From Coffea arabica (taxonomy: Eukaryota > Streptophyta > Magnoliopsida > Gentianales > Rubiaceae): a DNA stretch of 64,000 nucleotides. A program made the translations under genes and the position numbers. The stretch lies in assembly GCF_036785885.1 (NCBI RefSeq), contig NC_092323.1, forward strand, positions 9,990,501-10,054,500. Reading direction: 5' to 3'. Below are positions 15,331-64,000 of the stretch, in pieces. The notes under the pieces are model-generated. The model did no database searches. It was not told where the DNA came from and saw nothing but the letters and a program-made list of their open reading frames with translations. The first letter of the stretch is position 1. The number at the start of each line of letters is the position of its first letter.

Positions 15331-15472
15331 TAGCGCCGCAAGCCTAACTTCAGTAATTCATTAGAGAAAAGAAGTAAAGTTTCTTTTGATACTGTTGGAG
15401 ATCACTGAGTTTCGATTCCATACTAACGGAAATTTTCGAAAAATAACAATTTGCCATCTTTTTGCCAAACGA

Positions 15473-21994: not shown

Positions 21995-22146
21995 TAGCAC
22001 CGCCAGCCTTTACTTCATTAATTGATTAGGGAAAAGAAGTTAAATTTCTTTTGATATATAGTCTTGGAGTAAGGTCGGCAGAGTTTTTGAGTCCAGACTT
22101 GAGGAAAACATTATAGGCAAATAACATCTTCCTGCTGATTAAGGGA

Positions 22147-26958: not shown

Positions 26959-28143
26959 TTAGGAGCCGAAAGGCCTTTGGCTGGCGCAGTCCAAATTGTC
27001 GCCATAGCTCACTCCCAGTATGTCGCAGTATCTCTTATAGAAACCAATTCTGTCGTTCATCTGTGGGTTGGAGCCTTTTCCGCATTCAATTCCACCATTG
27101 ATGATGTTGGTAACGACACCGTATCCTGGGCGGCGACCAGCCGCATTATCAGCTTGGGACGGTGTCCATCTGCCGGTCATCACGTCGTGGCAAGAAGGCT
27201 TTGGGGACTGGGGCGTCATCCAAAACCAAAATGCAGTCTTGAAAGAAATGGTTGGGTCAGTTGCGACTAAATCTGGGTTGTGTAGGAGATCAGATCCTAT
27301 GGCTCTCCCTGCTGGACCATAGTTGTAGTTGCTACAATATTGGATCAAGTATCGATCAGTAAAAGAAATTCAATTAAGAAGAAGCTAAGTTAACGTTTCT
27401 TCTCAAGAATCTTGGATAGACTGGGATTTTGTTTACTTACTAGGAGATTTGAATTGGTCCTCTGCCGTAGTATTTTTTCCCAGGAGCACAGGGCCACTGT
27501 TGGTTGGCGACACAATAATCTGGAGGATTACCTTGTTCTTGCTTGAAGCAATACCCCCATGCATAAGGACCATCTGGGGCAGTTGCCCATCCGCCTGTGT
27601 CAAATCAACAAATGATGATGCCCGTTAGTATCACACTCTTTCTCCTCATTCCCATTTTCTTTCTTTCCTTTTTTTTTTTTATTACTCCTATCATCATTTT
27701 TCCCTCTAGCCTCATAGTTGTTTGACAACTTGACTTCGTCCTTACAGTCTTGACCATTTCAGTAGGTATATACGTAAATTAAACAACAATGGAATCATCA
27801 TGTTATCGATCGTTATGGGAAGATAACAAAATAAGGGCCACTAAGGATTAAGACAAGGTAGTTTTGATTTTGTACCTGTTGTTTCATGAGAAGTTTGAGC
27901 CAAGAAGGCCGCTATTTCTCTTTTACGAGCAGTAATATCACCAGTTGTTCCAAAAGCCCCATTTGACCTGGCAGCAGCTATGAAAGCTTCGTAGGTGTAG
28001 AAACCGTGAGCAGGACAGTTTGCATCATTTCGATGCTTTAGCATTTGCTCGAAAAGGGGTTTTGTTATAATAGAACTGACATCTTGTGCAAAGACCCCTA
28101 CGAGGGACAGAAAAGAGCACAAAACCACTGCCCAGAACCTCAT
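26959..28143 (-). CDS. GH19 chitinase, class II (no hevein domain), 264 aa, 3 exons
   Basis: Minus-strand exons are 28143-27876, 27594-27441 and 27331-26959 (795 bp, in frame, GT/AG borders). I start at the ATG at 28143; the longer open frame upstream has only TTG. An N-terminal signal peptide ([20 protein letters not shown]) leads directly into the catalytic domain, with no chitin-binding module, so this is class II (PR-3 type). Catalytic Glu residues are in SHETTGG (general acid) and CFKQEQG (probable general base). [18 protein letters not shown] and IINGGIECG are conserved. The C-terminus ends ASQRPFGS with no vacuolar extension, so secretion to the apoplast is expected. It hydrolyses chitin of fungi and insects. 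It is the most diverged of the four chitinases here but shares both intron positions. A TATATATA box lies 65 bp upstream. Confidence 0.93.
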
Positions 28144-28207
28144 TTTTTTTTCCCTCTCTTTCAAACACTGATCAAGTTTCTGTGCATTGTCGAAGGAAGA
28201 GTGCAGG

Positions 28208-28217
28208 CTATATATAG
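28208..28217 (-). promoter_or_regulatory. TATA box of class II chitinase
   Basis: CTATATATAG (palindromic), 65 bp upstream of the ATG. A transcription start about 30 bp downstream would give a 5' leader of about 35 nt. Confidence 0.6.
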
Positions 28218-30373
28218 TGTGTAGAGTGATAAGGTTGGAGACTTTTCCACTCGTTTCTTTCGAGGAAAATCAGCGTTTTTTTTTTTTTTTTTGGATAAAA
28301 CGGCGAAACAAGAAAATCAACGTTTGACTACTGCTAGGCACTCCTAAATATTCAAACAGTGACCGCTTAAGGAGTCATACTTCATTGTCATGGTAAAACG
28401 TACCTTAATATATCTTACATATATAAAGCGTCCAACGCCTTGTGAACAGTGCAGGATGAGCTGGTTATGCCGTGATTTGTCTGGTTTTGAGGGGCCTTTT
28501 GGTCCTTTGATGATGGGTGTCAGTGGCTCTGCTGGCATTTTGCTTCTGTCCGCTGGCTCTTTTCGATTGTAACTTTGTAAGTCCACGTGGCTTTCGATTT
28601 TGGTAGTCAGCAATTACTATTAGTTAGTGGGCGGTTGCGGTCAGCAATATTCTTTCTTTTCTCTTAGCTTTTTTCTTCTTCTTAGTTTTCTTTGGCAGCT
28701 TAAGAAATGTCTTGAAAAGTTTCTTTCTCAAAAAAAAAATGCAATTTAAGAAATGGATTATAATTTTTGAACTTTTACAATAGGTCCAATTTTTTTTCTT
28801 TTGAGCATGAAAAAAATGATTCAATAAATACAAATTATCAAAACCAAAATCATCAAAATCTCCAAAAAAAAAAAAGAAATAGACAGCCTAAAAAAGGGAA
28901 GAAAGAAAGAAAAATAAGAAAATATGTATATTCACCCTTGCAAGTTAAACTTGTTCAATATTGAGAGTTAAGAAATGGATTATAATTTTTGAACTTTTAC
29001 AGTAGGTCCAATTTATTTCTTTTGAGCACGAAAAAAAAGATTCAATAAATACAAATTATCAAAACCAAAATCATTAAAATCTCAAAAAAAAAAAGAAGGA
29101 AATAGACAGCCTAAAAAAGGGAAGAAAGAAGAAAAATAAGAAAATATGTATATTCACCCTTGCAAGTTAAACTTGTTCAATATTGAGAGTCCTATGCTCA
29201 TTTTCAATAGATGATGTCTTGTCCAAAAAAACCATTGTCGCTCCCTCCACTCTTGAACACTTTTAATCTATCAATCAAACAATCATCTGAATTGCAACAA
29301 AAAGAATAGGATCCAATATGAAACCCTGATTAGGAGACATGGTAGTATATATAAACCGAGATCATGGAGGGATAGAGTTGAATAAAAATTATGTGTCATG
29401 AATATAGACCTATTAATGTAAAACAAAAAAGCCACTGAATATACAAAAAATATTAATTCAATTTTACATTGGTGTGAAAATATTTTTAAATATGTTTGAA
29501 TGCTCATTCAAGTCTAGCAAACAAAAGAAAATGACAAACCCATTTTATAATTGCCTTGCTTTATTTCTTTCTTCTAAAAGATTGTTAAATGTGAAGTACT
29601 AACAAATAGAAAGTGTCAAAAAAATGGAAATTGTCAAATTGCTTGTCTTAGAGAAGCAACGTAACTAATAAGCAAAGCTACACATTACATGTATAGTCAT
29701 ACGCCTTTTAGTTCTACCTAATATTAGGCATTACTTACTGATTAATGCTATATTAAGAATGTAAGATAACCTGATTTCAAAGCCATATTTATTTGTGTAA
29801 TTAGGAAAAAACATACACTCACACACATGACTATTGTATCTAACAAATAAAAAAAGCACACAAACATAACAGGAAAATAATGAGTCTCAGCTACCTGACG
29901 CATGGCGTCAGGGCTAAAAAACTAGTATATATATATATAGCTAAATCCTAAAGCAGCGGAGGAGGTAGAAAAAATTTTCAATGGGGCCAAAAATAACACT
30001 AGCATTTCTTACGAGTTATTTTGTTTATTTAAAAAAAAAGGGAAATGCCAATATTCATGCAATTAGTAACATTAATGCATTTATTTTGTGAACAACGTAA
30101 AAAAAAAAAACTCAGCTGAATTTACTCGCGTAATTACCATTTTTCTTGAAAAAGAATAAAAAGTCATTTAAAATTATTCACAACGGATTTTCATGTTCTG
30201 ATAACCATTTATAATCTTTCATTTTCCACTCCATATATTTTTGTCAATATAAATAACTAAGCGATCATTTATTCAAGATTCTAAAATGAATGAGTGATAT
30301 ATTATGCCACCTAATTCCTAGGGAATTAAATGACTAATAAATATAACAAACGAGTCATAAATTATACTAGCAA
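28218..30373. other. intergenic with a tandem duplication
   Basis: No gene seen. Contains the 222-bp tandem repeat listed separately, plus AT-rich sequence. Confidence 0.45.
28746..29189. repeat. 222-bp direct tandem duplication
   Basis: Unit 1 at 28746-28967 and unit 2 at 28968-29189, almost identical, each starting TTAAGAAATGGATTATAATT and ending TTCAATATTGAGAG. The low divergence indicates a recent event. Confidence 0.85.
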
Positions 30374-40999: not shown

Positions 41000-42444
41000 T
41001 TAGGCAAAAGGTCTCTGATTGTAGCAATCCAAATTGTTCCCATAGCCGATTCCAAATAGGTCACAGTACCTCCTGTAGAATCCAATCCGATCAGCGACCT
41101 TATCATTAGTACCCATGCCACACTCGAGTCCACCGTTAATAATGTTGGTGATGACCCCGTATCCTGGGACTCGACCAGCTGACGTGTCAGCACCAGATGG
41201 GGTCCATGCCCCAGTGATGACGTCATGGCATGAGGGCTTGTTTGACTGTGGTGTCATCCAGAACCAAATTGCTGTCTTGAAGGATATAACGGCGTCCGTT
41301 GCCACCAAGTCTGGATTGTTTATAAGGTCAGCTCCGATTGCTTGGCCAGCTAAACCGTAGTTGTAATTGCTGAAAGTAAAAAAAAAAAAAAAAAGTGTTA
41401 TGCAAATCAATTGCCAAAGTTACCTATAATGTTCCAATGAGGTAGGCTGATGAATTATTTTGTTGTGTCATTTTAGGAAGGGCAAAATCTTAAAAAGTTT
41501 AAATTTGGGCCAAAAGCTGATAAGAACTCCGGAATAGGTGTTAAATAAAATCAAAATCTACATTACTAATATGTGAATTGCTTTCTGGCAAATGTCGCCC
41601 CCTCCTTAGTTTTAAGCAGATTATTGTTACATGGGTTTTTTTTTCATGTGGAGAATTTCGTTTGTCGATCCGCTGTTAAGGTAGAAGACAAGTAGCAGAC
41701 TACTCGAAAACTTACTGAGTCAATTGTATTGGTCCTCTGCCATAGTACTGTTTACCAGCAGGACACGGCCAGGATGGAGAATCGCAGAAAGACCCAGAGG
41801 CGCCATTTTCCGTTATGAAGCAATATCCCCAAGCATAAGGACCATCTGGTGCACTAGGCCATCCACCTACACATGATTGAAATCCATTTAGCAACGTAAA
41901 ACTCAAAGAAAACGAAGAGGAAAATGTAATTTAATTGTTTGATCAATCGTGCCAGGAATGAACAAAACATATAAATAGATCAAGCCGGACCTGTAGTCTC
42001 ATGTGAAGTCTGTCCCAGAAATGCAGCAATTTCTCGTTTACGAGTTTCATCATTACCAGTTGTTGCAAAGCCCGGGAAGGATTGTGCAGCAGTGATAAAA
42101 GCGTTGTAACTATAGAACCCATTGCTGGGGCATCTTGGATCGTTACGGTATTTCAGCATTTGATCAAAAAGAGCTTGACTGATGAGGGAGGAAATGCCTG
42201 TACCACTGCCGGGGTTAGGGGTTGAACCACCACCGCCGGGGCTGGGGGTTGAACCACTGCACTGGCTCTGGCAATTGTTAGAGGGAGAGCAATAGTCGGG
42301 GGTGGAGCCACACCAACCATACTGGCTACAGCACAGCCCATTTGGGCACAGAGCATTCCCTGCCTGTCTTCCACATTGTTCTGCTAGTGATGATGTTGTG
42401 AACAATGGGGCTAGAGTTAACAGAATCAAAATCCAATTCCTCAT
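41000..42444 (-). CDS. GH19 chitinase, class I with hevein domain, 324 aa, 3 exons
   Basis: Minus-strand exons 42444-41991, 41866-41716 and 41369-41000 give 975 bp in frame with GT/AG borders. The signal peptide ([21 protein letters not shown]) is followed by a complete hevein/CBM18 module with eight Cys ([35 protein letters not shown]), a Gly/Pro/Ser hinge, and the GH19 domain. Catalytic Glu residues lie in SHETTGG and in [25 protein letters not shown] and IINGGLECG are intact. The C-terminus ends NQRPFA, with no vacuolar extension of the kind seen in tobacco class I enzymes, so an apoplastic location is possible. This is the only copy here with both the binding and the catalytic module uninterrupted. 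A TATA-like box lies about 40 bp upstream. Confidence 0.94.
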
Positions 42445-44351
42445 GTTTTGTTGCCTCTCAATTGTGGGTTAATTTTGTGGATAAATATAGAGCTCTAGCG
42501 GGATTCCTTGTGGGCATGTAAAGAGGCTCAGACCGTGTTCTTTGATTATTCTTGAAAATTCCAAGTCAATTTTGGCAGCTTAAAGACTTGGGACATTCAC
42601 TGGAACGTCATAGTCACACTAGCATATTTCTTGATAATCGATACCGTCACTTAAGATAATGCTTAGTTGTGGTCTCTGGAATTTTTTGACGCAGTCAGGT
42701 CTCAAGTTCAACTGTGCGATATTCTTCTACTATTATCAAACCAAAAAAGAAAGCCGTTTTACTAAATTGAGGAGCATTTTCTCACGCCCTACATTAAACT
42801 CAATTTGTGGATTTTACATAAAATGACAAAGTAGCTGCTTGATCAAATTGTAGAAAGGCATAATGTTGATGGACAGATTGAAATTCAGGCCAACAACTTT
42901 CTTCTTTCTTTTTTTTTTTTTAGTTTGATTTTTTTACATATCTCTGGGTCTCCAAAAGCCAAAATAATAACGATTCTAGCTGGGCAGCCGAAATTTGTTT
43001 AATAGTACTTGTAATTGAGTAATTAGTTTAGATAAGATCGAAGGTTGGAAAATTGGAATGCCGCCGGAAGTTTGGAATTAGGACAGGGGGAGGGTATATC
43101 CTGGACTTGTGCACATCCCAGTCCGTTCCTTCTTGGCAATCGATGTATATTTATTTTATGAATAAGTTTTTTATACACTTTCAATGTAGAATTATTTTTT
43201 ACACTAACAGATTTATAGTATTAATATCGTATAACATAAATTCAAATTTGAAATTCAAATAATACATATATTTCATACTTCTATAGTTGCTAGTGTAATA
43301 TTACTACATTGTCAATGCATAAAAAGTGAAGTATTTATCAGATGTGCCGAAACCTCGAAGAAGACTTTTTGGGGGGGGGGGGGGGGGGAGCGTAGCGAAT
43401 ATTTTGGCGTGCACTGTACTCAGTCGGATCTATGAATTTTTTGTTGCAGTAAGTGCATATAATATTTAAACTCGATTCATAATTCATAATTTATAGTCTA
43501 AATGACGAAATACCTACGCGATAGAGATAGAGCTATTGCCATGCAGGAACATGGAGGATCGGTGTTGCAAGTTTGGAACAAGTCAATTCCCAAGAAAGTC
43601 CAGGGGACAGCATGTCCTGCACACAGCAACTGCGAAAATGTGTCTTGAGGAGTTTGATCTTCATCCAGATTCTGATTTCTTCCTGATTGCAAGTGCAGCC
43701 ATCTGAATAGAATTGAACAGAACAGTCCATTTCAAATTATATTTGATATCAAGTGAATGGTATTCCCCTATCCTATGCACTTTGTGGTATGTATTGGACA
43801 ATTCTTAGAGTATAGTGTCCTATAGGCGTATAGAGGTCTTTATTCCTCTAAATCAATGAGCGTGCAAGAAATTTACTACATGCGTTCAAGAATTTCCTCT
43901 GAATTTTTCTACTCTACTTTTGCATTTTATTCAGACAATATTTGGTCTCACATTTTCTCAGGATTTGAAAGGGTTGCTATTTTGTTAGCGTTTTCCTTTG
44001 TCCCCAACCCAGGTTTTGAAAGGATTGGAGCAACTGTCCCTTAGACTTCGTTAATTCCACTTTACTCTTCATATATTATTTTGCATGCTTTTTAGAAAAT
44101 TCATACATACCACATCATACTACTTGGTACTTTGCAAAATTAACCAAAAACATATCATGAGATGCTAACAGATTAGTGATGGGCATCAAATCATCAAAAT
44201 TAAAAATAAAAACATCTTCAAAATCTTATTGCAGTAAAATCCATCAAATGCACTTCTTCATCACTCGTAATAGAGCAATTTATTCGGGCTAAACATGATC
44301 AAACAAATGAATCCCTTCATCGTTAAATCTTCCAATTTCATTGCAAAACAT
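42445..44351. other. intergenic between two chitinase genes
   Basis: No gene recognised. Contains an 18-G run at 43371-43388 and two overlapping short minus frames (43498-43730) without family resemblance. The TATA-like AAATATAG around 42482-42490 belongs to the class I chitinase promoter. Confidence 0.4.
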
Positions 44352-46951
44352 TCATGCAAAAGGCTTTTGACTGTAGCAATCCAGATTATTTCCATAGCCG
44401 ATTTTGAATATATCACAATATCTCTTGTAGAACCCAATCCGATCAGCCGCCTTAGCATTAGGACCCATGCCACACTCGAGTCCACCATTAATAATGTTGG
44501 TAATAACACCATAACCTGAAACCCTTCCAGCCGCCCTATCAGCACTGGATGGATGGGGTCCATCCCCCAGTAATGACGGCGTGGCTTGAAGGTTTGTTTC
44601 CCTGCGGTGTCATCCAGAACCAGATTGCCGTCTTGAATGAAACCACAGCATCTGTTGCTACCAAGTCCGGATTGTTTATCAGGTCCACTCCAATTGCTCT
44701 GCCGGCTTTTCCATAGTTGTAATTGCTGGTGAAAGAAGGAAAGAAAAGATGTAAAATCAATGCCCAAGGTCAAGAATAACTGATCTTTTTGACACCATGC
44801 ATTTAATTAGTTTCAATTGTAGTAGGAACTAGCAAGTACTCCGCAAGTTTGAGATTCCTTCATGTCATGGTGGCTTAGTTTAGGTTTCCTTAATCCTAGC
44901 CATCAGTTTAAAATTCCATTCCATGGGGTGGCGACTTAAGTTAGGTTACCTAAAAAAATAGATGCTATGAAGTTTAAAACGGCTAGCAAGTGATCAAAGT
45001 TTCATTACCAATTTTTTTGTCTTCTGGTTATTAAAGTCCACAACGGAAACATGATAATATGTGATTTGTATGTCTGGACTTCTTGTTTTTATCCTCGTCA
45101 ATTTGTCGTTTCTTTTGAATGTAATCATCTATCTACTAGTAATAAATTAATCGTGCCCAAGTATTTTCCTCTCCAGTTAAAGCTGTCAACGGGTCGGGGT
45201 CGGGTCAGAATTGAAAATTTTGAACCCGAACCCATTATAATGTGACAATTTCGGTACCGACCCATATATTTGACAAGTCTAGTGTTTAGAGTTCCAGAAT
45301 TGGGTTCGACAGGTCTTGGGTCCGAGTCTACCAGAAAAAATAAAACCCAACAAAAATAATGTATTTAGAAATATTATTGTATTTTGAAATATTCATATTA
45401 TTGTATTTAGAAATGATGTATTTAGAAATATTATTATATTTAGAAATAAGGCCCCAACAAGATTAGGATTTGTTAATTTAGCAAAAGAATTATTTGTGTA
45501 TTTATAAATATTTATATTTTATAATCATTAATGCATTGTTCAGGTCTGAGTTGGATACGGGTTGGAATTCTATATTCCGTATCCGATCTACTTTTTATGA
45601 AAGTAAACGGGCCCGAGTAACGGAATTATTTCTTAATCCATACCCGAAAAAAAAAAAATATCGGGTCCGGGTCCAAACCCAGCCCATTAACAGCCCTATC
45701 TCCAGCAAAAACATAAAAAGTTGAACAGGGTACTACTGGGTATATGAATTATAATACTACGTGAATTCATGTAGGCTGCATGCTAAAAACGCTAGATTCC
45801 AAAACTCAGCAAAATATGCTTCCAAGGTAGAAACTATGAAAGTATACGTTCGATAGATTTGTACTCTAATTAACTCAATATCATTTCATTTGGTGAGCTT
45901 TCCAGGGTTCAGAGCCAAAGGAAATTTATTTTTATTTGTCAAAATAGAATTTTGGATGATTAAACGCCAAGATTAAGGTGTAGCCAACGTCCATTTACGG
46001 ATTGATAAGCATTGTGCAGAACTGGCAATCCGAATTTATTAGTTTTTGCTCCAACATGTTGATCTCTAATGAGCACGCTTACTGTAATATATACTCCTTA
46101 CATTTCCCTAGAAGTTCGACTTGCATGGATTTTAATCGTGTATAAAATTTCAGTATCAATTGTGACGAACTAGTTACTAAACTTACTGAGTGAGTTGTAT
46201 GGGGCCTCTGCCATAGTATTGTCTACCGGCAGGGCAAGGCCAGTCTGGAGAATCACAGAAAGACCCCGAGGCACCTATTTCTTTTATGAAGCAATAACCC
46301 CATGCATACGGACCATCTGGTGCACTTGGCCACCCGCCTGCTCAAAATCAAGCAATACTAAACTTTTAGCAGCCCCCCCCAAAATAGGAAAAAATCCCTC
46401 CTTATCTTAGTCTTTTTGATGAATTTAAAAAAAAAAACAGGAATACAGAGTAATGATAACAATGAAACGAAAAAATTTTAAAAAAAAAAAAAATCAGCCC
46501 GACCTGTAGTCTCATGTGAAATCTGGCCCAAGAATGCAGCAATTTCTCTTTTACGAGTAGCAACATCACCAGTTGTTCCAAAGCCATTGAAAGATTTTGC
46601 AGCAGTGATAAATGCATTGTACGTATAGAACCCATTGCTGGAGCATCTTGGATCGTTATGATATTTGAGCATTTGGTTGAAAAGGGCTGGACTGATAAGT
46701 GAGTCAATGCCAGCTCCGCCACCGGGGAATGGGGTGGGGTTAGATGGCGTAGGGGATGAACCACCACCGTTCTTGCATTGGCTCTGGCAGCCATTTGTGC
46801 AATAATCAGCTGTAGAGCCACACCAACCGTACTGGCTGCAGCAAAGCCGATTTGGGCACAGAGCATTTCCAGCTTGTTTACCACATTGTTCTGCTAATGA
46901 CAATGTTAGCAATGGTGCTAGAGATAATATAATAACAATCAAATTTCTCAT
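44352..46951 (-). pseudogene. GH19 class I chitinase with frameshift in exon 3
   Basis: Minus-strand exons 46951-46504 (signal peptide, eight-Cys hevein module, Gly/Pro hinge, first part of the GH19 domain), 46337-46187 and 44725-44352. Exons 1 and 2 are intact (SHETTGG, CFIKEIG). Exon 3 is 374 bp where the intact paralogue has 370: a 4-bp tandem insertion (ATCC) in the [12 protein letters not shown] region shifts the frame and brings a stop within a few codons, removing about 70 C-terminal residues. Intron 2 is 1.46 kb, against about 350 bp in the class I paralogue, because it holds a 522-bp hAT-type MITE and other sequence. A Mutator-like element sits 219 bp upstream of the ATG. Probably non-functional, though sequencing error is possible. 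Confidence 0.85.
45177..45698. mobile_element. hAT-like MITE in intron 2 of the frameshifted chitinase, 522 bp
   Basis: Ends AGCTGTCAACGGGTCGGG and, inverted, AGGGCTGTTAATGGGCTGGG. TCTCCAG repeats on both sides (45170-45176, 45699-45705; 7-8 bp), as expected of a hAT element. A truncated copy with flank is at 39918-40538. Confidence 0.7.
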
Positions 46952-46954
46952 CTT

Positions 46955-47160
46955 TCTTGCCTCTTCTCAATTTGTCTGAGTCTATGGATGAAGATAAGAG
47001 GGGATCGATTGCTGGTATTTAAAGGTTCAATCAATGGTTCGGTTCTGATTACAGATTACCTTAAAGAAAGTATACCAATTCAAAGTTGGTTGCTCAGTGA
47101 TTTGAGTTTAGTTGGTGTACTTGACTTTCAGCATTCCTCAGCTCGTTGACTGGTTCTTGG
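46955..47160 (-). promoter_or_regulatory. remaining proximal promoter of the frameshifted chitinase
   Basis: About 210 bp between the ATG and the transposon. A TATA-like TTTAAATACC (minus strand, about 47017-47026) lies about 70 bp upstream of the ATG. Confidence 0.4.
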
Positions 47161-50939: not shown

Positions 50940-52323
50940 TCAGGCAAAAGGCCTCTGATTGTAACAATCCAGATTATTTCCATAGCCAATTCTAAACAAG
51001 TCACAGTATCTCTTATAGAACCCGATCCTATCGGCCACCTTATCATTAGGACCCTTGCCAGTTGCCACACTCGAGTCCGCCATTAATAATGTTGGTGATA
51101 ACACCATAACCTGGGACTCTACCAGCTGCCCTGTCAGCACCGGATGGAGTCCATCTCCCAGTTATGACATCGTGGCTTGAGGGCTTGTTCCCCTGCGGCG
51201 TCATCCAGAACCAAATTGCCGTCTTGAATGATATTACTGCATTTGTCGCCACCAAGTCTGGATTGTTTATGAGATCGACTCCGATTGCTTTGCCAGCTTT
51301 TCCATAGTTATAGTTGCTGCGATGGAAATATTAAAAATGACAACTGTTTTATGCAAGTCGATGGAAACTCACGTTAATTTTGCACCCAAAAAGTACACCA
51401 GTAGTTGTTTATACACAAAAATTACAGGACTTTAGTCCAATGGCACCAAGGGGGGCTAAAGTCACTCTTAGGAAGTGAGGTCTTTACTGGGGTTTATCCG
51501 GGAAGACAAGTCCAACGGGTGCGATAGTGCGTCCGTTTGGTTCTGAGATAGTGCGTCCGTTTGGTTCTGAGATAGTTCAATTTCCCTAACCCTATATTGA
51601 CCCAGTTGGATTATTCCCATTCCTTATACTATATGGTTAGGAATGGGTTAATTGTTAAAAAAGAAGAAGAAGAAGAAGAAGAAGAAAGTAGTTGTTTATG
51701 CACAAAAGTTGTATGTATGGGGTTAATTTAATCATGTTTAATTTCCAAATAAATCCCAAATTAGTTTAAGAGTACTAGTGAACTTACTGAGTGAGTTGTA
51801 TGGGTCCTCGGCCGTAGTATTGTCTACCAGCAGGGCACGGCCAGTCTGGAGAATCACAGAAAGTCCCAGATGCTCCCTTTTCTTTCACGAAGCAATAACC
51901 CCATGCATATGGACCGTCTGGTGCACTTGGCCACCCACCTGGACAGCAACAAAAATGCAAAATATATATATATATATGGTTTAATTTAACCATTTTTATC
52001 ACTTGGAAAAAATTTAAAAAAAAATTATATGAGAACAAATGTTCAGCCTGACCTGTAGTCTCATGTGAAGTCTGGCCTAAGAATGCCGCAATTTCCCGTT
52101 TACGAATATTAACATCACCCGTTGTTCCAAAGGCACCGAAAGATTTTGCAGCAGTGATGAATGCATTGTAAGTATAGAAGCCATTGCTGGAGCATCTGGG
52201 GTCGTTACGATATTTCAGCATTTGATTAAAAAGTGCTGGACTGATAAGGGGGCCAATATCGCCGCCAGCAACTGAAGATAACAATGGGGCCAGTGATAAC
52301 ACAATCACGATCAAATTCCTCAT
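50940..52323 (-). pseudogene. GH19 chitinase that lost its hevein domain, with frameshift in exon 3
   Basis: Minus-strand exons 52323-52053, 51938-51788 and 51316-50940. The signal peptide ([17 protein letters not shown]) is almost that of the class I copy at 44352-46951 but joins the catalytic domain directly ([17 protein letters not shown]): the hevein module and hinge, about 60 codons, are missing in frame. Exon 2 is intact (SHETTGG junction, CFVKEKG). Exon 3 is 377 bp instead of 370; seven extra bases after IINGGLECG (a GGCAA repeat separated by CT) shift the frame and give an early stop, removing about 45 residues. So this is a class I gene turned class II and later broken, or a truncated enzyme. 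A TATA-like box lies about 70 bp upstream, with a 26-bp tandem repeat beyond it. Confidence 0.85.
51522..51571. repeat. tandem repeat of 24-26 bp in intron 2 of the last chitinase
   Basis: GATAGTGCGTCCGTTTGG plus TTCTGA occurs twice in a row. A GAA tract follows at about 51662-51688. Confidence 0.6.
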
Positions 52324-52429
52324 CTTTCTTGCTTCTCAAATTGTCTCAGATTTGTGCCTTAATGATGATAATTGGGGGATTGATTATATGGGTATATAAA
52401 GGATTACTGTAAGGGATGCTCCTGATTAG

Positions 52430-52484: not shown

Positions 52485-53307
52485 CAAACCAGGGATGCTC
52501 CTGGTTTAAGTAATTTCAGTTTAGTGCGTATTCGCGACTTTCAGCATTGTTTAGCCCCTTGATTACTTCTTCTTAAGAAGACTGGCGTTGACTTGTTATG
52601 TCCATGGCGTATATAGGATTGAACAAGTCAATTCGAGGAACATTAGGATGAAATCATTACCAGACTAAACGCCCAAATGCTAAATAGAAAAACTGCAAAA
52701 GTTCGACTTTTACTTGTTTTCATAGAATGTTGAAAGCTTCAAAGGTTAGTTTCATTTTTGTGAACCACCCTCTGTCCTTTGCTTCAAATGTTCTATATAT
52801 GTCTTTCCATGATCACGATTTTGATTCTTTTTCACCCACAAAAAGTAACTTACCAGCAGAAGTCATCGGCCTAGATGAACGATTTTGGCAATGATAGAGG
52901 AAAAATAAATCACTATTACTATTTATTCTATCAAATTAACTCCAGTGCACCAAGTGGATTCGCATTCAGCATTTAGGACTAAACAGTCAACTAAAATTTG
53001 ATCTTGATCATTAACTAAAAACTTCGTGCCTTGGAGTCAGCAAGGGATGGGTGGGGTCTCACCGTTGATGTTTTTCGTTAAAAAAAAAACTAGAAAGGAC
53101 TGTTGATTTTATAGTAGAATCCAACTTATACATTTTAGTGTCATTAATTCTACATACAAGGTGGAATTGCTCTATGAGATAATGCCTTATTTAAACGAAA
53201 AGGATGAACAGGTCTGTCTTTTTTTTCTTTTCCCTTGTATAAATGCTTGGGAGTTGAAATTGGAACGGAAATTGTATAAAAGTAAATTGGACTGGGATTC
53301 TTTCCCC

Positions 53308-53395
<88 letters not shown>

Positions 53396-54429
53396 AATGG
53401 GATTCTCAAAACCCTTGGGCATTTGATTACAAATTAAGAATAGTTGCCATTATTTTCGTTGGTAGACAAATGAACCCAATGATAGACTTGTTAAAATGGT
53501 TGACGTTGTTGTGTGGAAATCTCCTCTTTCTTTGAAAAGAACATGCTTTACAATTAGACTGCTACAAAAACGACAGGAGAGTTTTCTTTGTTAAATCTTT
53601 TTAATATTGGCCTTCGATTTTGATAAGTTAATTTTTTTGGAGCTCATACCTTTTTTCCCCTCTTTCCTTTTTCTTGCCATAGCGGAGAAATGTTGCCGCC
53701 TCAACCACACGCTGGCATTGAACCATTGCATCCCTACCAAAAAAATACGCCCCACTCTTTTTTTTTTTTTTTTTTTATCAAAGTTTTTCTCCTCCAAGAC
53801 AAGCACACATGACACAATAACACACACACACACACACCCTCTATCTCTCTCTACACATATGCAAGATCAAAGTTGCTATGGTTTTTAGTGTTACCATATG
53901 TCAAGAGAATGTTTTTGTTCTACATGAATGTTTTGGTAGGGTGGAAGGGGACTGGAAAAGGGGGCTTGGCTCTTAACTTTAGATTTTATGAGTTGAAAGA
54001 TAAGAACATTGCTATTCTATAAGTATAGTCTATTGTCAAAGCACTTCAAATAGATGTTTTATTTCATCTCTAATTTTCTCCAGTTAAACCCATGCCAAAA
54101 CTTCCCTTCTCTCTTCTTTTGTATCTTTTCTTCTCTTTTCTTTTGAATCACAGAAGTTGATGAAATATTCAGCATAACCTCCCAATAATTGTGCATGGTT
54201 ATGAAGTGTAGGGGGTCTCTAGAAGTTGGATAATAAATTTTGATGGAAGTGGAAAAGAAACGAATGAGGCACATAAAATGGTGTAGTCGCAGGAGATAAG
54301 AAGTTAGTTTTAAATCTTAAAGCTCAACTATTTTCCCTTTCTTTGGTGCAATTCTAAACTAGAATAGAAGAGCAATTAGGTAATGGATTCTTATCAACCA
54401 ATCCCGGACACAACATTTGTTTTAAAAAA
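52485..54429. other. intergenic with long AT microsatellite
   Basis: No gene recognised. Frames rich in Tyr-Ile are the translation of the (AT)n tract. CA and T tracts occur near 53757-53836. Confidence 0.5.
53312..53393. repeat. (AT)n microsatellite, about 80 bp
   Basis: About 40 uninterrupted AT units. Expected to be highly length-variable and prone to cruciform formation. Confidence 0.95.
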
Positions 54430-54652
54430 AATTTAGCCTTAGAATACTTCTAGAAGACATCAAACAAATCAACGTAATACTACTATTCCAATTCATTTTG
54501 CTTGAATGGATTCACTCTATTCTTTTCTTGTTTTATGCATTTTTTTCAACCCTATTATCAAAACTTTCTACTCTCAAACCCAAATGTCAAGAAAGACAGG
54601 ATTTAAAATTCAAAATAGAACATTTACACATGTTAAGTTTTATCAAGAATGA

Positions 54653-55234
54653 CGTATTAGGATCCAAGCGCGGAACACACAACTATTGAGATGCCAAGTA
54701 CACAATAATTTAATGACAAATAAGCCAGAAGTATGAAAAATAAACAATACACAATATTTAACGTGGTTCGTTTCCACCATTGAACCTACGTTCATGGAGA
54801 GAAACCCGTTCTTTAATATGAGAGAAAAACCCTATATAAGAATACAATTTGAACCCAAATCCAACCTTTGTATACCATCTCTCATCTCCCAAGAACCCTC
54901 TCTCACCCCCATGTATAAGGCTACATATTGCCTTTTGTGCTCCTTGTATGTCTCTTTGTAATATGTCAACTCACCTATTTATAGAGAATATTATTTGGTC
55001 AAAACTCAAATAATAATAGGAAACCAATACTAATTCCTCCACTAATTCCTCCACTGATTTAGAATATGGAATAACTTCTATTCTTAACTACTCATATAAA
55101 TAGGAAATTCCTTGACTACTACTTCAAGTAACTAAAAATAATTAGGAAACTAGTTACTTCCATACAAAACAAGAAATCTACCTAGAAGAAATTAAGCCAA
55201 TTTCTTAACATGATGGTTGGCCCATCCAAACATA
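54653..55234. mobile_element. arm-specific insertion, possibly LTR-derived
   Basis: Present in the left arm and absent from the right arm, where the flanks are directly joined (AATGAC to ATAAAGCTGAC). On the minus strand one part begins TGTTAAGAAATTGG like an LTR start; the body has no coding capacity. Fossil; family uncertain. Confidence 0.4.
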
Positions 55235-56000
55235 AAGCTGACCAGGATAAGTTAAATTCTACATCGGATACCAAATGATGAAGAATTGGAGGCTAGCTCT
55301 TAAGTATTTCAATATCCATCAATTGCCATGTAGATTTCTGGACACGCAGTTGATATTAAAGGTGGAACTAAAAAGTTGCAAGAAAACGCGCTCTTCATCC
55401 GCGTCTCTAGAGTGTCAAGATTGTCAAATAATGGATGATGGTTCGACATCCGCATGCATAATAGTCTTCGTCGCCGCCCTCGCGTGATCAGCTTAAAGAA
55501 AGCAACGGAGAAATTGCTTTTTTTTGCATGTTCTCCCGCGATAAAAAGGAATTGCTGATTCATTTTTGCTGAATCAGCGCAGTGACGTCCTTGTCTTGAT
55601 CACTTTAGCTAGTCTTTATTCATTTCTTTTGGTTGAAATATTTGTATTATGGTCTGCCACGATATTCACTGCATCTCCACTATTTCAGAACGACATCGTG
55701 CAACAATTCTGAAACTCTAGTTACCTCATTGTGTGATTAGCGAAGAATAATCTTCTTTGTTTTATTGGGTGGAGGTGGGATTGAACTTGATGGTAAGGTA
55801 CGAGAAATTATAAGTAGGAGGTTTTATATTCAAAATTTCTTACTTATAAAAAAAAAATTCTTTGTTTTATTGTTTTCTTAATTGTAGATGAACCATTTTG
55901 AGCTCCACAACTGAGGATATATATGAAGTGTCTGATCCGGCGTTATCATCAGATCATGCGCGCATTTTCGAAGTAGAGGTCAGCCATCATCTTTCTGATA

Positions 56001-56198
56001 ATGGAAGGTATGGTCGTCTGCTCAGCAAACTATGTACCTCTCACTCCCATTAGCTTCCTAATGCGTGCAGCATTTGTTTATAGACAAAGGGTCTCCATGG
56101 TTTTTGGAGATACACGATATTTGTGGAAGGAGACGCATGAAAGATGCATCAGGTTGGCTTCTGCTCTTTCTCAGTTGGGAATTACCCGCGGCGACATT
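56001..56198 (+). pseudogene. orphan exon 1 of the acyl-activating enzyme gene (inverted copy)
   Basis: 66 codons from ATG, followed by a good donor (GTGAGT at 56199). Only three residues differ from the true exon 1 at 61153-61350 (FLMRAAFVYRQRV against FLERAAFVYGQRV, and ITRGDI against ITSGDI). No matching exon 2 exists downstream in plus orientation: past the arm, plus-strand transcription would enter the antisense of the real gene's exon 2. It lacks the 81-bp 5' duplication of the real gene. Confidence 0.9.
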
Positions 56199-57772
56199 GT
56201 GAGTTTCTCATCAACTCATCTATAATATTTGAATTCTGATTTTAGTAAGAGAAAAAGGATCTTCTTTTTTTTTTCTCTAATTTTTTTTTTTGGGGGAGGG
56301 GGCTTTTGAAGGGGTGTAGTGATTACACGGATTTGAGTACTCTCTAATAGATTCTCTCTTCATTTTTCATCCTCAATGTATATCTGAATATCTGGATGTA
56401 TAACATGTGTTTTCATTTATTAGGAAAGGATATGGTCATTTTAAATCTGACTAATTCTAACCCTTATTAATAAATGAAAACACGTGTCATGCATCTAGAT
56501 ATATACTGTGGGAACTGAAGAGAGAATCCATTGAAAAGAAATCAAGTCCATGATTCCACTAGTCTACAAATTGATAAATTGATGAGATAATGGATTTGCG
56601 GCTACTAAATTGATGGATTCATTGGAGTTCAGTCTAGTGTGAGTTTCTTGAGTTCAGTCAAGTGTTTAAAACGCGTATTTGGGACGGGCTAAGTGTTGTT
56701 GACCATCTATCCGGTAGCATGAAGTGCGTGTCATGGCAAACACCCGGTATTTGGTTTTTTTTTTTTTTTTTTCAATAAAAAATTCCTAATTTCTTTTTCA
56801 TGACTTTATTTCTTATACTTTTTTTACTAATGTAGTTTATGTCAAAATATCATTATTCGCTGTAAACATGATTAGATGACTAATTTGTAAGCTAGAATTT
56901 AGACCTTGATGCTTCGTGATTTTGTTATTAAAGAAACATAAAGGTGTAGGTGTGAGCAATTGAGCATTACATAAGATCTCATAATTTCTAGCAAAAACAT
57001 ATTGAAATTTAGGATTTTAAGTTTGTTATTCATGACTTTATTGCTTAATTTTGTTGTGATTTATTTGAACATGATTTTAATTTGGTATGCTATATATTGT
57101 ATTTATTAATAATACACATACACACACACACACATATATATATGTGTGTAATTTTTATAGTAGTATTGTCTTTTTTTATATATATTTTTAAATTAAAAAA
57201 ATTCAAAATTTGTAAAAAAATTCAAAATTTGTGGGGTTTACACTCATGACTCTCGTCCTCACTAGTTGAACATATAATATTTGTCTAACGTCTTCGCCTT
57301 GGTTCAATATAATAATGCACTTTTGTGAAAGAAGAGGTCATTTTGTGACAGGAACGCTAAAGGATCAACCAAATGCTCCATTGCATTTATTTGTCCCAAA
57401 ATTCAAATATATTATGATTTGTATAATCAAAAGCTTCATTTAGGATTACCAACCTAACGGTAGACAAACATGCGTTCTTAGAATCATAATCATTAATTTG
57501 CACAAATTGTTTGATATGTATTCTTTTTTCTTTTTTCTTTTTTAAAAAAAATGCACCATCAACCATTCTCAAATATAGTTGTTCCAGATGGATGGGGCTC
57601 CATGTCCATGGTCGAGAAACGTCATTCATGAGATCAATTTATTTCTCATGACCAATAACTCTTTTTTTTTTTTTTTTTTGGGGGGTTTCGAGAGGGACCA
57701 TGGTGGTTGATTAAGAAAATATGAACTGTCATGAAAAGTCGCAGAAAGAGATAGATACAGATGAACGCTAAG

Positions 57773-60700
57773 CTAGAGGGACTTCCCATCCCCCTTAATT
57801 AGCCTATCTCTAAGAACAAATTTTTGTACTTTACCAGTGGAATTTACGGGCAATTCCCCAAAGAAAACACTCTTAGGCCTCATATGCTCAGGCAAATGAC
57901 TAGCACAAATATCCATAATCTCTTCCTCAACAATACAACACCCGTCTTTCAACTTCACAAAAGCACAAGGTGTCTCCCCAAGTAACTCATCAGGCCTTCC
58001 AACAACTGCAACCTCTGAAACCATAGGGTGCCTAATTATCACGCCTTCAATTTCTAAAGAACTTACAATCTCACCCCCACTGTTGATCACATCGATGGCC
58101 CGATCCTTCATTTGTATATAACCATCAGGATGCTTCACTCCAAGGTCCTTCGTCCTATACCATCCTCCCTCAAAGGCTTCCTCAGTTGCCTGAGCATTTT
58201 TCAAGTACCCCGACATTAATGTATTGCTCCTAAACATTATTTGTCCAACAGTTTTCCCATCAGCTGGGACACTTTCCATGGTTGTAGGATGTTTTACATC
58301 GGCTCCCTCAATTATTAGGTTGTGCGTTCCTTCGCGAATTCTTGTTCTAGCATCTTCATGATCTAGCTGCGACGTTACGCCGTGACAGGATCTTCTAATT
58401 GTTCTCGACGTTACTGGACCAAGAGCTTCACTCATCCCATATGCACAAATAATATTGAAACCTAATTCACCGAGTTTGGTTTGAATTTGGGGTTCGGGCA
58501 ATGCTCCTGCGCCTGCAACAATAACATCCACCTTCTGAGGCAACGGTTGCGGATCAGCTGCTAGCGTTTCAGCAATCTTGCTTAAGAGGATTGGTGGACC
58601 GCAAAATAGGGTGACATCGTGAAGAAAAATGGAATTTAAAATGGCTGTCCCCGTTACATCTCTGAGACATATATTAGTGCCTCCCAATGCGGCCATCGTC
58701 CAGGGGAAACACCAACCGTTGCATCGGAACATGTCTACTGTCCAAAGAAACACGGGCTTTTGTCGCATGCCTATTCTAAAAATTTCTCCAAGTGAATTTA
58801 GATAGGCAGCTCTGTGGCTGTAGATCACTCCTTTTGGTTTGCTGGTGGAGCCAGAAGTATAACATATTGAAATTGGGTCGCATTCGGATTTAGGATAGCT
58901 GATATCGAAATCCAGTTTCCCTGTTGCAAGAAGTGCATGATAATCCAGTCGAAAGTTAATTGGAGTGGCTGAGGAAGCATTTGTATGGTTTTCTTGGATT
59001 AGGATTAGGACTGGAGAATTGTTTTTAGTCTGAGATAATGATCCAAGCGCTTCCAGGACGACTTTGGTAAACTCATAATCTACAAAAATTGCTTTGGCTT
59101 CTAGCTGCTGCAGTTTGACGGCTAAAGTCGTTGCATTCAACTTTGGGTTAAGGGCACAAAGGACAGCACCGGTCATTGGAACTCCAAATTGCAGCTCATA
59201 AAGTTCTGGTATATTGGGCGCCACAGCTGCAACCTATCGAGACAAAAAGGATTTTCAATTTCTTCAGTAACTTTTCACATAGAAAATTGCCCAACTCTTG
59301 AATGGAAGTTTATATCAGAAAGAAATCTATCGGCTTTAAAAAAAAAAAAAAGAGAAATCTGCAGATGAATAATAGATTCATCAGAAATTTATTAGGTGTT
59401 AAGGATCTGATATTAACTAGGTAAATTGTCAAGGCTGATTACTTAACGAATTGTTCACTTAATAAAAGCCGAAAAAATGTTGAAGAGCTCTAATTAAGTT
59501 CAGGACTATCCATGGTCGTCCCACAAAAGGACAAATTAGAGAATGATCAACGAAATGATCCTGCTCGGCCTGTCATTCATGCACCGCATGAGAGACTAAG
59601 AGTTAAGACTAAAGGTTTTCTGGCTAATATAGGCATGGATCATGGTTATCTTAACCGAAAATCGAACTCAAAATTCCTTATGGTTTGTTTTGATTGAAGA
59701 ATTTGACGAAAGATTTGAAATCCTCTCAAATTTGTCGAGTTGTTTGAATTACTTAAAGAGATATCTGGATTAGAAAATTATCAATTTTTGAGTGTTTAAA
59801 ATGTATTTAGATAATTTATGAATAACAAATCTAATTGTATCTTAAACAATTTAAATAACTAGAGCAATTTGGTCGGATTTTAAATCTTTCATCAAATTTC
59901 TCAATCCAAAACAAACCAGCACGGCAACATAAATGATTGAACCAAGGTGAAGCTTTGGGCGAAGGTGTTAGACAAGGTATTATATGTTCAACCAATTAGG
60001 ACGAAAGTCCTGAGTGTAAACCCCACAAATTTTGAATTTTTTTCATATTTAAAATAATAAGAAAAGACAATACTAATGTAAAAATTATACACACACATAT
60101 AATACTAATAAATACAAAAGCATTTGATATAATTAAGAAAAATCATAAATGAAGTATTGTTATCTAACAAGCAAAATTATAAAATAACAAACACAGCCCA
60201 ATGGTTCAAACAAACTCAATTTACAAGTATCAATATATAGCATACCAAATTAAAATCATATTCAAATAAATCACAACAAAATTAAGCAATAAAATCATCA
60301 ATAACAAACTTAAAATCCTAAATTTCAATATGTTTTTGCTAGAAATTATGAGATCTTATGTAATGCTCAATTGCTCACACCCACACCTTTATGTTTCTTT
60401 AATAACAAAATCACGAAGCATCAAGGCCTCAATTCTAGCTTACAAATTAGTCATCTAATCATGTTAACAGCGAATAATGATATGTTGACATAAACTACAT
60501 GAGAAAAAAAAGTATAAGAAACAAAGTCATGAAAAAGAAATTAGGAATTTTTTATTGAAACTAAAAAAAAAAAAAAAAAAAGAAGACCATATGCCGGGTG
60601 TTTTCCGTGACACGCACTTCATGCTATAGTGTGAATGGTCAACAACACTTAGGCCCCGTACCAAATACGCGTTTTAAACACTTGACTGAAGAAACTCACA

Positions 60701-61350
60701 CTAGACTGAACTCCAATGAGTCCATCAATTTTGTAGCCTCAAATCAATTTATCTCATCAATTTATCAATTTGTAGACTAGTGGAATCATTGACTTCTCTC
60801 CAACGGATTCTCTCTCCAGTTCTCGTATTGTATATCTAGATGAATGACACGTGTCTTTATATATTAACAACGATTAGAATTAGTTAAATTTAAAATGATC
60901 ATATTCTTTTCTAGTAAATCAGAACACATGTCATGAATTCAGACGTATATTGTGGATGGGAAATGGAGAGTAAATCTATTAGAGAGGAGCCAAATCCGTG
61001 TAATCACTGCAACCCTTCAAAAACCCCCTCCCAAAAAAAAAATTATAGAAAAAAAAAGAAGGAGGGCTAGAGCTATAGTTTCATTTCTCAATCCTTTTTC
61101 TCTTACTAAAATCAGAATTCAAATATTATAGATGGGTTGATGAGAAACTCACGATGTCGCCGCTGGTAATTCCCAACTGAGAAAGAGCAGAAGCCAGCCT
61201 GATGCATCTTTCATGCGTCTCCTTCCACAAATACCGTGTATCTCCAAAAACCATGGAGACCCTTTGTCCATAAACAAATGCTGCACGCTCTAGGAAGCTA
61301 ATGGGAGTGAGAGGTACATAGTTTGCTGAGCAGACGACCATACCTTCCAT
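57773..61350 (-). CDS. acyl-activating enzyme (AMP-binding acyl-CoA synthetase, AAE1/BZO1-like), 552 aa, 2 exons
   Basis: Minus-strand exons 61350-61153 and 59233-57773 (1659 bp, in frame, GT/AG). Start MEGMVVCSANYVPLTPISFLERA is the usual N-terminus of plant AAE clade VI proteins. Motifs: ATP-binding YTSGSTSKPKGV (about residues 185-196), MFRCNGWCF, YGMSEALGP, GWYRTKDLGVKHPDGY and the C-terminal NSTGKVQKF lysine motif. The enzyme should activate a carboxylic acid as its adenylate and pass it to CoA; relatives use short or branched acids, benzoate or cinnamate in peroxisomes. The C-terminal tripeptide is KSL, not a classic SKL. Several signature positions differ from the family (see findings). 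The 1.9-kb intron contains a MITE and the inner part of the inverted-repeat arm. Confidence 0.92.
59682..59917. mobile_element. MITE in intron 1 of the acyl-activating enzyme gene, 236 bp
   Basis: Imperfect inverted ends of about 40 bp: GGTTTGTTTTGATTGAAGAA at left and TTTCTCAATCCAAAACAAACC-like at right (inverted). It can fold into a long hairpin. It lies just inside the spacer next to the right arm of the inverted duplication. Confidence 0.7.
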
Positions 61351-61482
61351 TATCAGAAAGATGATGGCAGACCTCTACTTCAAAAATGCGCGCATGGTCT
61401 AGTTTGCTGAGCAGACGACCATGCCTTGCATTATCAGAAAGATGATGGCTGACCTCTACTTCGAAAATGCACGCATGATCTG
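61321..61482 (-). repeat. 81-bp tandem duplication at the 5' end of the acyl-activating enzyme gene
   Basis: Units 61321-61401 and 61402-61482 are about 90% identical. The inner unit holds the true start codon (61350). The outer one repeats it in the 5' leader. Confidence 0.9.
61399..61431 (-). promoter_or_regulatory. upstream ORF (10 codons) made by the 81-bp duplication
   Basis: ATG at 61431 reads MQGMVVCSAN and then TAG, copying the first ten codons of the main protein (MEGMVVCSAN). If the leader begins upstream of 61431, this uORF should reduce translation of the main frame. Confidence 0.6.
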
Positions 61483-63040
61483 ATGATAACGCCGGATCAG
61501 ACACTTCATATATATCCTCAGTTGTGGAGCTCAAAATGGTTTATATACAGTTAAGAATACAATAAAACAAAGAACTTTTCTTTTTTTTTAATAAGTGAGA
61601 AGTCTTGAATCAAAAACCTCTTACTTATAATTCCTCTCACCTTACTTTCCATCTAGTTCAACCCCACCTCCAGCTAATAAAACAAAGAAGATTACTATTC
61701 TTCGCTAATCACGCAATGTAGTAACTATGGTGCCAGAGTTTCATAATTGCCGCATGATGTCGTTCTGAAATAGCAGATTGATTGGCTCATGGGGCGATAA
61801 TGGAGATACGGTGAATGTCGTGTCAGACCATAAGACAAATATTTAAACTAAAAGAAATAAATAAAGACCAGCTGAAGTGATCAAGACAAGGACGTCACTA
61901 CGCTGATTCAGCAAAAATGCATCAGCAATTCCTTTGTCATGGGAGAACATGTCTCAAAACGCAACTTCTCAAAACGCAATTTCTCTGTAGCTTCCTTTGA
62001 GCTGATCACGTGAGGGCGGCGACGAAGACTATTAGACATGCGGATGTCGAATCATCATCATCATTTGACAATCTTGACATTCTAGAGACGCGGATGACAA
62101 ACGCGTTTTCTTGCAACTTTTTAGTTCCGCGTTTAATATCAACTGCGTGCCCAGAAATCCATATGGCAATTGATGGATATTGAAATACTTAAGAGCTAGG
62201 CTAGCCTCCAATTCTTCTTCATTTGGTATCTGATGTAGAATTTTAACTTATCCTAGTCAGCTTTATGTCATTCTTGATAAAACTTCACATATGTAGGACG
62301 TTCTATTTTGAATTTTAACTCCTGTCTTTCTTTCTTGATAAAACGATGGTTGTCTAGATGCAGCCTTGAATCTTGATGCATGACGACGAAAAAGATCAAT
62401 AGGGTCATATCAATTAATCACTTTGCCAGCTAGTGGAAATCGATCGGTTGGCCTTAAATATTAGCTGCGTGCGTACTTTTATCATTCCAGTCACTTAGCA
62501 CAATGAGATTGATACGGTTGGAGAATCAGACTGTAGTATTACGTAATTGGGTCCATGAACGAGGCTAGAGTGTTAACACTAATCTAAGTAGATAGGGACC
62601 AACCCAAGTAGCTGTATGAACTCGGGCGAGCCAAACAATTGACTTTAACGCTGTAATTTGATTTAATTAGGCAAATTGAAGCGTACGTTTAAGATACATA
62701 GGCTGGAATTGATTGTGTTGTAAGTGATGACGCGTATTTGTTGCACCTAACTAGATGATGAAACACTGGCCTACCTATTTTTGTATTATATATGTTCTAT
62801 AAAATTATAGAGTGATTGCTTGATCACACATCTGTTGGTCCAAGCAAGTCTGTCTGTTTCCAGGATTAGGTCCCTGGAGTTATCCTTAATCATGGTAGAC
62901 TCATAATAGATGGTAGACATTTGGGTTGGTGAGTAGAAATTTTTGATAATAGGGTTGAAAAAATGCATAAAACAAAGAAAGGGATAGAGTCAATCCATTC
63001 AAGCAAAATGAATTGGAATAGTAGTATTCTAAGGCTAAAT

Positions 63041-64000
63041 TTGGGTATCTGTCAATTAAGGTATGTCAGATTATCTGTCAATTCATCATCAATGATATCA
63101 CAGCAATAAAAGACAAGGGAGGTATATGTAACTCATTAATGATATCATCAATGACAGCATTAATGAGTTACCCAAATTAAGGTACTTTTATAGCAATAGG
63201 GGAGGTATGTGTAACTCATTACTTATATTTGGATATCTAGTGTAACTCATTACTTATATTTGGGTAAATTTGGTTTTCAAAATTCAATGACGTAAATTGT
63301 ATATTACATTATCTCATAAAGTGATGCAACACAATTTGGGTTATTGAATTTTTTGAAAATCGGATCTACCGAAATTCTGGTATTCAAACGAAACTTGTTG
63401 AATAAATTCGACTAACTACAGTGTGAATTAATTTTTTTTAAAAAAAATCTCAACTAAAGTATCTAGCACTAAATGAAATGAAGTATCTTGCTACTTCATT
63501 TCATTTTCCACAGAGAAAATCGCAAAAAAGAGTTATTAAACTATTGAAAATTTGGTTATTTGATCATTACACTATTTATTTAACTGCAATTGCCATTCAC
63601 TCAATTAACCAAATAGTGAAATTTTTTTGTGACTTAACTAGTAAAAATTTATACTTTTAATCACTCAAATAATATTTTTTTATGACTTAACTAATAAAAA
63701 TTTATACTTTTAATCACTCGAATTATAAAACTATACATTTTTTTATATCACTAGAAGTATGTTTCAATTAATTGAATGATCATATTAGCTAATTAAATGT
63801 CTAATAGCTAAAATATATATATATAGCATTGTAACATTGCTTGAAGAAGCCATCTGCATTTGTCTCTATCTGGTTCAACTTATTACTTCATTTTTTTGCT
63901 TTTGCTTTATCTCAAGTTGTGGATAAGCAAAAAGGGCACATGTAGAACACAAATATCATCTCATTCCTCAAAATATTTTTTTAATGCTCATTTTTCTGAC
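63041..64000. other. intergenic, nothing recognised
   Basis: AT-rich sequence with short direct repeats (AGTGTAACTCATTACTTATATTTGG-like words near 63200-63265 and ACTTTTAATCACTC words near 63652-63718). No gene or clear element seen. Confidence 0.4.

Follow-up and report, generated by a model that had tools for sequence, protein, structure and literature searches.

In a 64,000-nucleotide stretch of Coffea arabica DNA (hereafter the window; contig C14, NC_092323.1, positions 9,990,501 to 10,054,500 of the forward strand), an acyl-activating-enzyme (AAE) gene stands opposite an inverted copy of its own promoter-like sequence and first exon. The results of the current analysis, which compared the window with itself and with the genome to which it belongs (1.198 Gb in 131 contigs), allow us to gain insight into the age and likely history of this arrangement. 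We propose that the locus probably goes back to an old inverted segmental duplication and is now a relic in decay, in which a truncated, promoter-bearing copy converges on a working AAE gene. The same arrangement occurs on a second contig (C13), and the C14/C13 locus belongs to an already known kind of inverted gene duplication.

Blast and repeat searches recovered the two reverse-complement arms that an earlier, sequence-only reading of this DNA had described: pieces of 54476-57298 pair with 63028-59958, and the two longest inverted matches between the arms have an E-value of 0. In agreement with that reading, the single exon 2 of the window (486 codons) lies in the 2.6-kb spacer, the left arm lacks exon 2 while retaining an open exon 1 and a GTGAGT donor, and the two copies of exon 1 differ at three residues (21, 28 and 63). 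The truncated copy, made up of promoter-like sequence, exon 1 and donor, converges on the full gene, and with this geometry, read-through transcription of either strand could give an RNA that folds back on itself as a hairpin. The upstream sequence, which had been taken as shared throughout, is paired in part only, as a left-arm segment of 573 bp and a right-arm segment of 583 bp (62333-62915) are unpaired; the left-only segment is probably a dispersed repeat, since two parts of it resemble contig C11 (84% and 77%). The gene copies are inverted and close together, as in the inverted gene repeats of the CHS I, PAI and VIM type that produce small interfering RNAs (siRNAs). The near-perfect arm identity of such repeats is confined here to short tracts; over 55229-57298 the C14 arms differ at 199 of 2030 aligned sites and by 24 insertions or deletions (indels), an identity of 90%.

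The copy of the inverted repeat on C13 lies at about 8.18-8.19 Mb (left arm, C13:8182244-8185205), and the two contigs, which may represent two subgenomes or two divergent haplotypes, are collinear around it, with further AAE genes in matching order. The four arms were aligned over 55229-57308 (1999 columns with all four bases). Among the 117 sites that divide the arms two against two, 112 unite left with left and right with right, one unites the arms within a locus and four are crossed; a further 201 sites differ in a single arm and 11 are more complex. Divergence between the arms is 10.1% on C14 and 12.6% on C13, as compared with 5.6% between the left arms and 6.2% between the right arms. 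Since like arms pair at 112 of the 117 sites, the inverted repeat predates the separation of C13 and C14. The view that the event is recent, which had been drawn from the few residue changes in exon 1, is refuted by these patterns, and with it the use of exon 1 to judge recency. Inverted repeats are hazardous for assemblers, and a foldback or a mis-joined haplotype was weighed as the source of the arms; such an artefact is extremely unlikely, as C13 has the same arrangement with changes of its own and the C14 arms differ by 10% with 24 indels. The C13 right arm extends further outward, to a partner of window 53996-54388 at which the C13 arms are 96.4% identical, and beyond this partner it carries two short stretches that resemble one of the genes in the chitinase cluster neighbouring the repeat (assigned by similarity, not by Pfam). 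On C14, no right-arm partner of 53996-54388 was found up to the end of the stretch examined. The duplicated block therefore appears to have reached toward the chitinase cluster, and the promoter and exon 1 are probably the remnant of a larger inverted duplication.

The divergence of the arms is markedly uneven along their length. Arm identity is 96.6-99.0% in the TATA region, exon 1 and the intron start, and 85.7-88.9% in the remaining segments, with the exception of one intronic block at 96.6%. In 5000 shuffles, none matched the observed dispersion, none the emptiest 250-site window and 32 the longest identical run; a two-rate segmentation was better than a single rate by 26.7 log units. Exon 1 lies inside a highly similar tract (the exon-1 tract; Table 1) that is flanked by far more diverged tracts of 84.9% and 80.5% identity, and is therefore a poor clock. 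The C14 arms differ by 2.4% in the exon-1 tract and by 3.3% in the intronic tract, and the C13 arms by 3.3% and 9.2%, respectively. The two left arms differ by 3.6% in the exon-1 tract, 3.9% in the intronic tract and 3.6% upstream, where the arms themselves differ by 10.6%. The left-left divergence of the tracts thus resembles that of the upstream sequence despite the low divergence between the C14 arms, which suggests that the arms were homogenised before the C13/C14 split. We infer that the exon-1 tract was probably homogenised between the arms shortly before this split, by gene conversion, and the intronic tract may be read likewise, with less certainty. Conversion after the split was also considered, and is not supported by the site patterns (one within-locus pattern against 112).

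The left copy on C13 has decayed, as an 8-bp deletion in its exon 1 causes a frameshift and stops. On C14, the left exon 1 has M in place of E at residue 21 and R in place of G at residue 28 relative to the full gene. The codon for residue 63 is CGC in both left copies and in the C13 full gene, and the change at this residue is therefore assigned to the C14 full gene. Bacterial relatives are a weak guide to the direction of the exon 1 changes (E at position 21 in 46 of 80; position 63 variable), so that polarity rests on the other arms. The left intron contains a hairpin at 56388-56502 resembling a miniature inverted-repeat transposable element; its counterpart in the right intron is degraded, and the right-arm stretch that matches the hairpin has matches at dozens of genomic places. 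The left copy on C14 could be an expressed short gene, in which intronic polyadenylation would give a 74-residue peptide (66 residues from exon 1 and 8 coded by the intron), as the frame is open to the intron stop and plus-strand AATAAA signals follow at 56469 and 56774. However, the C13 counterpart is frameshifted, M21 is not among the residues listed for 76 of the 80 bacterial relatives and R28 occurs in none of the 80, which makes an expressed short gene highly improbable. A plus-strand chimeric protein extending past the left donor was also considered and rejected, as there is no stop-to-stop frame of 100 residues there.

The full gene on the minus strand consists of two exons with 552 codons in all, and its copies on C13 and C14 are both open across these codons. 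Exon 2 alone scores 147.4 bits against PF00501 (cut-off 29.9) and 68.2 bits against PF13193 (cut-off 24.5), in keeping with an acyl-activating enzyme of the ANL superfamily. The C13 and C14 genes differ by 15 nonsynonymous changes over 1275 sites and 17 synonymous changes over 381 sites (P = 0.0002 for neutrality), with nonsynonymous and synonymous divergences (dN and dS, NG86) of 0.012 and 0.046; the full genes are under purifying selection. Of the 191 columns with a conservation of 90% or more in the 80 bacterial relatives, the C14 full gene deviates at 50, and part of these departures may reflect a plant-clade difference. Two of its residues, both also present in the C13 gene, are R236 (58724-58726, minus), which is H in 77 of 80 relatives, and K428 (58148-58150, minus), which is G in 77 of 80, with D429 retained; we take the sites around K428/D429 and R236 to be the TGD and MFH motifs, respectively. 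The presence of R236 and K428 despite purifying selection may mean that the enzyme is altered, that the protein is a non-catalytic relative or that the plant clade differs at these sites. An 81-bp tandem duplication covers part of the 5′ untranslated region (UTR) and the start of exon 1 in the full gene; it is common to C13 and absent from both left arms and from an exon 1 fragment on C15. This duplication introduces upstream start codons, with the first copy giving a 10-codon upstream open reading frame (start 61431) that mimics the true N-terminus, and could reduce translation of the full gene.

We propose a series of linked events to account for the locus. An old inverted segmental duplication would have taken in the AAE gene and probably also a small part of the chitinase cluster next to it. 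The right copy would have continued as the working gene, and the left copy would have lost, or never had, exon 2, leaving a truncated pseudogene tail to tail with the working gene. Exchange between the arms over exon 1, and probably over the intronic tract, would have followed before C13 and C14 separated, with the effect that exon 1 looks young, and the left arms would have drifted after the separation. Transcription of either strand through the 464-bp gap and the 2.6-kb spacer could then produce a hairpin and, possibly, small RNAs against exon 1 and the promoter. Several points weigh against this account. The right arms differ by only 1.6% in the exon-1 tract, which indicates that constraint contributes to the low divergence of exon 1. 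The divergence of the left arms is itself uneven: two other intron segments reach 12.0% and 10.2%, and part of the pattern may therefore reflect uneven mutability. In the intronic tract, where the C13 arms are far apart, the C13 right arm alone carries 16 changes, a pattern that simple conversion leaves unexplained. The left copy on C14 retains an intact frame, a TATA-like sequence and a donor, and may be expressed. Furthermore, the comparison lies within one plant assembly, and by itself fixes neither which copy was the original nor the former existence of a left exon 2. Transposon capture of the left arm was also considered, but terminal repeats and target-site duplications were not systematically searched for.

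A different role for the locus would be that of an endogenous hairpin source, in which read-through from the left promoter or past the 3′ end of the full gene is cut by Dicer-like enzymes, and the resulting siRNAs act on the AAE gene, by silencing it or by directing methylation of its promoter, as for CHS, PAI, VIM4-VIM2, Mu killer and ARR17. The orientation and contents of the arms are suited to such a role, for which there are documented parallels in plants, and the computed duplex of the exon-1 tract is very stable (-673 kcal/mol for C14 and -626 for C13, as compared with -142 for one shuffled control). Perfectly complementary runs of at least 21 nt number 23 in one count of the C14 arms (879 nt) and 21 in another (818 nt, longest 82), as compared with 21 in the C13 arms, which are less perfectly matched (613 nt, longest 53); judged from these runs, the perfect complementarity of the arms is wearing away. 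However, both mRNAs, left and right, are of sense polarity, and double-stranded RNA therefore requires read-through past AATAAA signals on one strand or the other; on the plus strand between 55900 and 60200 these lie at 56469, 56774, 59461 and 60107. The observed/expected CpG ratio, a weak proxy, is 0.61-1.03 in six arm segments and thus no lower than the 0.60 of the whole window. Nor was a methylation footprint seen as an excess of transitions (17 of 122 GC sites within CpG, 110 of 663 outside), which is likewise a weak proxy, and no Rfam family, microRNA genes included, matched at gathering score in 53000-64000. Purifying selection on the full gene speaks against permanent silencing, and the locus, at 90% identity and with a 2.6-kb spacer, resembles VIM4-VIM2 of Arabidopsis Col-0, which lacks the small RNAs described as specific to Cvi. 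These proxies of selection, CpG content and eroding complementarity lean against strong, lasting silencing, and we regard the hairpin source as unlikely. It is conceivable, if doubtful, that siRNAs are detectable from the locus in some tissue, whereas a maintained regulatory role is improbable, and the DNA holds no sign that the left copy was retained for silencing. It is similarly hard to credit that a partial inverted copy, still bearing a promoter, was a conditional hairpin source beside its parent gene before the two chromosome sets separated and has been preserved as such ever since, with conversion of exon 1 and the promoter renewing its complementarity. If this were true, a long-lived hairpin source would tune the AAE gene, and perhaps the related fragments on C11, C15, C21 and C22. 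The decaying relic of an inverted duplication thus remains the explanation we favour.

Table 1 Features of the inverted AAE locus in the window
Feature	Position	Strand	Remarks
Left arm: exon 1 with promoter-like sequence before it and part of intron 1 after it; no exon 2	54430..57308	+	inverted match to 59936-63040
Right arm: the corresponding parts of the full gene (promoter-like sequence, exon 1, part of intron 1)	59936..63040	-	inverted match
Outward continuation of the left arm	53996..54388		partner at C13:8191876-8192263
Left-only segment, unpaired in the right arm	54657..55229		two parts resemble contig C11
Exon-1 tract: TATA, 5′ UTR, exon 1, intron start	55891..56258		97.6% arm identity
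TATA-like hexamer of the left copy	55918..55923	+	83 bp upstream of its ATG
Left exon 1	56001..56198	+	198 bp, 66 open codons, then GTGAGT
Intronic tract	56762..57098		96.7% arm identity; possibly homogenised, less certain
3′ flank, from the full-gene stop codon to the left arm	57309..57772	-	464 bp; minus-strand AATAAA at 57643 and 57391
Exon 2 of the full gene	57773..59233	-	486 codons plus stop codon; carries AMP-binding and AMP-binding_C domains
Intron 1 of the full gene	59234..61152	-	1919 bp
Exon 1 of the full gene	61153..61350	-	198 bp, then GTGAGT
81-bp tandem duplication in the full gene, from 5′ UTR into exon 1	61319..61481	-	2.0 copies, 92% matches

Fragments related to the locus are found elsewhere in the genome. 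Three on C11 (L092 4972-5837, L093 5034-5899 and L094 5048-5905) span the junction between the left intron and the 3′ flank together with the end of exon 2; their main piece is 89-90% identical to the window, and two of the three share 99.96% identity over their 10-kb surroundings. As all three copies carry the junction between left arm and 3′ flank at this identity, the junction is old. The fragment on C15 (L091 4030-5142) holds promoter-like sequence, the 5′ UTR and roughly two-thirds of exon 1 with an altered start codon, and is nearer to the C13 right arm than to C14. On C21 and C22 (L131 4925-5325 and L132 4674-5065), a piece of some 400 bp from the AAE 3′ flank (window 57321-57728) lies in another context, with surroundings free of AAE coding matches; in L131, the same 28-bp stretch flanks the fragment on both sides (as judged by eye), like filler DNA at a repaired break. 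Thirteen AAE matches of equal score and identity to the query lie on C2 at 3.43-4.31 Mb, an apparent amplified array, and C1 has one match of the same score and identity. Among the neighbouring genes in the window, chitinase (glycosyl hydrolase family 19) genes and gene pieces are clustered on the minus strand (26962-28269, 41003-42468, 44264-46966 and 51049-52335); two of the stretches are Pfam-confirmed, the others are assigned by similarity to these, and some members are perhaps broken. A NAC-type tandem pair lies at 15365-16955 and 22117-23797, with the NAM domain confirmed in the second and the first assigned by its similarity in the window self-comparison.

The locus provides a relatively dated case, with a replicate on a second contig, of what becomes of a partial inverted gene duplication over time: the truncated copy drifts, the parent survives and the arms homogenise in patches. 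It also cautions against dating an inverted duplication by a short conserved exon. If small RNAs are present, the locus would show how much divergence and what spacer siRNA production tolerates.

Inverted gene repeats that produce siRNAs are well documented in plants (PMC3534067, PMC13213937, PMC9636151, PMC7674411, PMC3440606); within what was returned by a literature search for acyl-activating enzymes together with inverted repeats, no related case was recognised. The soybean CHS I locus is also an inverted cluster of duplicated biosynthetic genes, for which siRNAs and a seed-coat phenotype are documented, whereas the present locus is known from DNA alone (PMC3534067). In poplar, the ARR17/FERR duplicates are likewise partial copies with promoter and exon 1 parts, and in P. 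euphratica the inverted segments are described as yielding siRNAs and as being under relaxed selection; unlike the partial copy described here, which adjoins its parent, the poplar copies are located apart, in a sex-linked region, from which they silence in trans (PMC9636151, PMC7674411). Mu killer of maize is similarly a partial inverted duplication that retains an end region of its parent and for which a read-through hairpin is proposed; it is, however, derived from a transposon and its silencing has been shown, while the present locus comes from a host gene (PMC3440606). The PAI4-PAI1 and VIM4-VIM2 pairs of Arabidopsis Cvi are likewise duplicated genes arranged as inverted repeats, PAI4-PAI1 tail to tail like the present locus and VIM4-VIM2 head to head (PMC13213937). 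For VIM4-VIM2, the same account gives, for Cvi, to which the small RNAs are specific, an identity of 99.86% with start codons about 96 bp apart, as compared with 92.22% and about 2.8 kb in Col-0, and proposes read-through as the trigger (PMC13213937). With arms of 90% identity, one of them lacking exon 2, and a 2.6-kb spacer, the present locus differs from the Cvi arrangement and, on the figures cited, appears closer to the Col-0 state of VIM4-VIM2.

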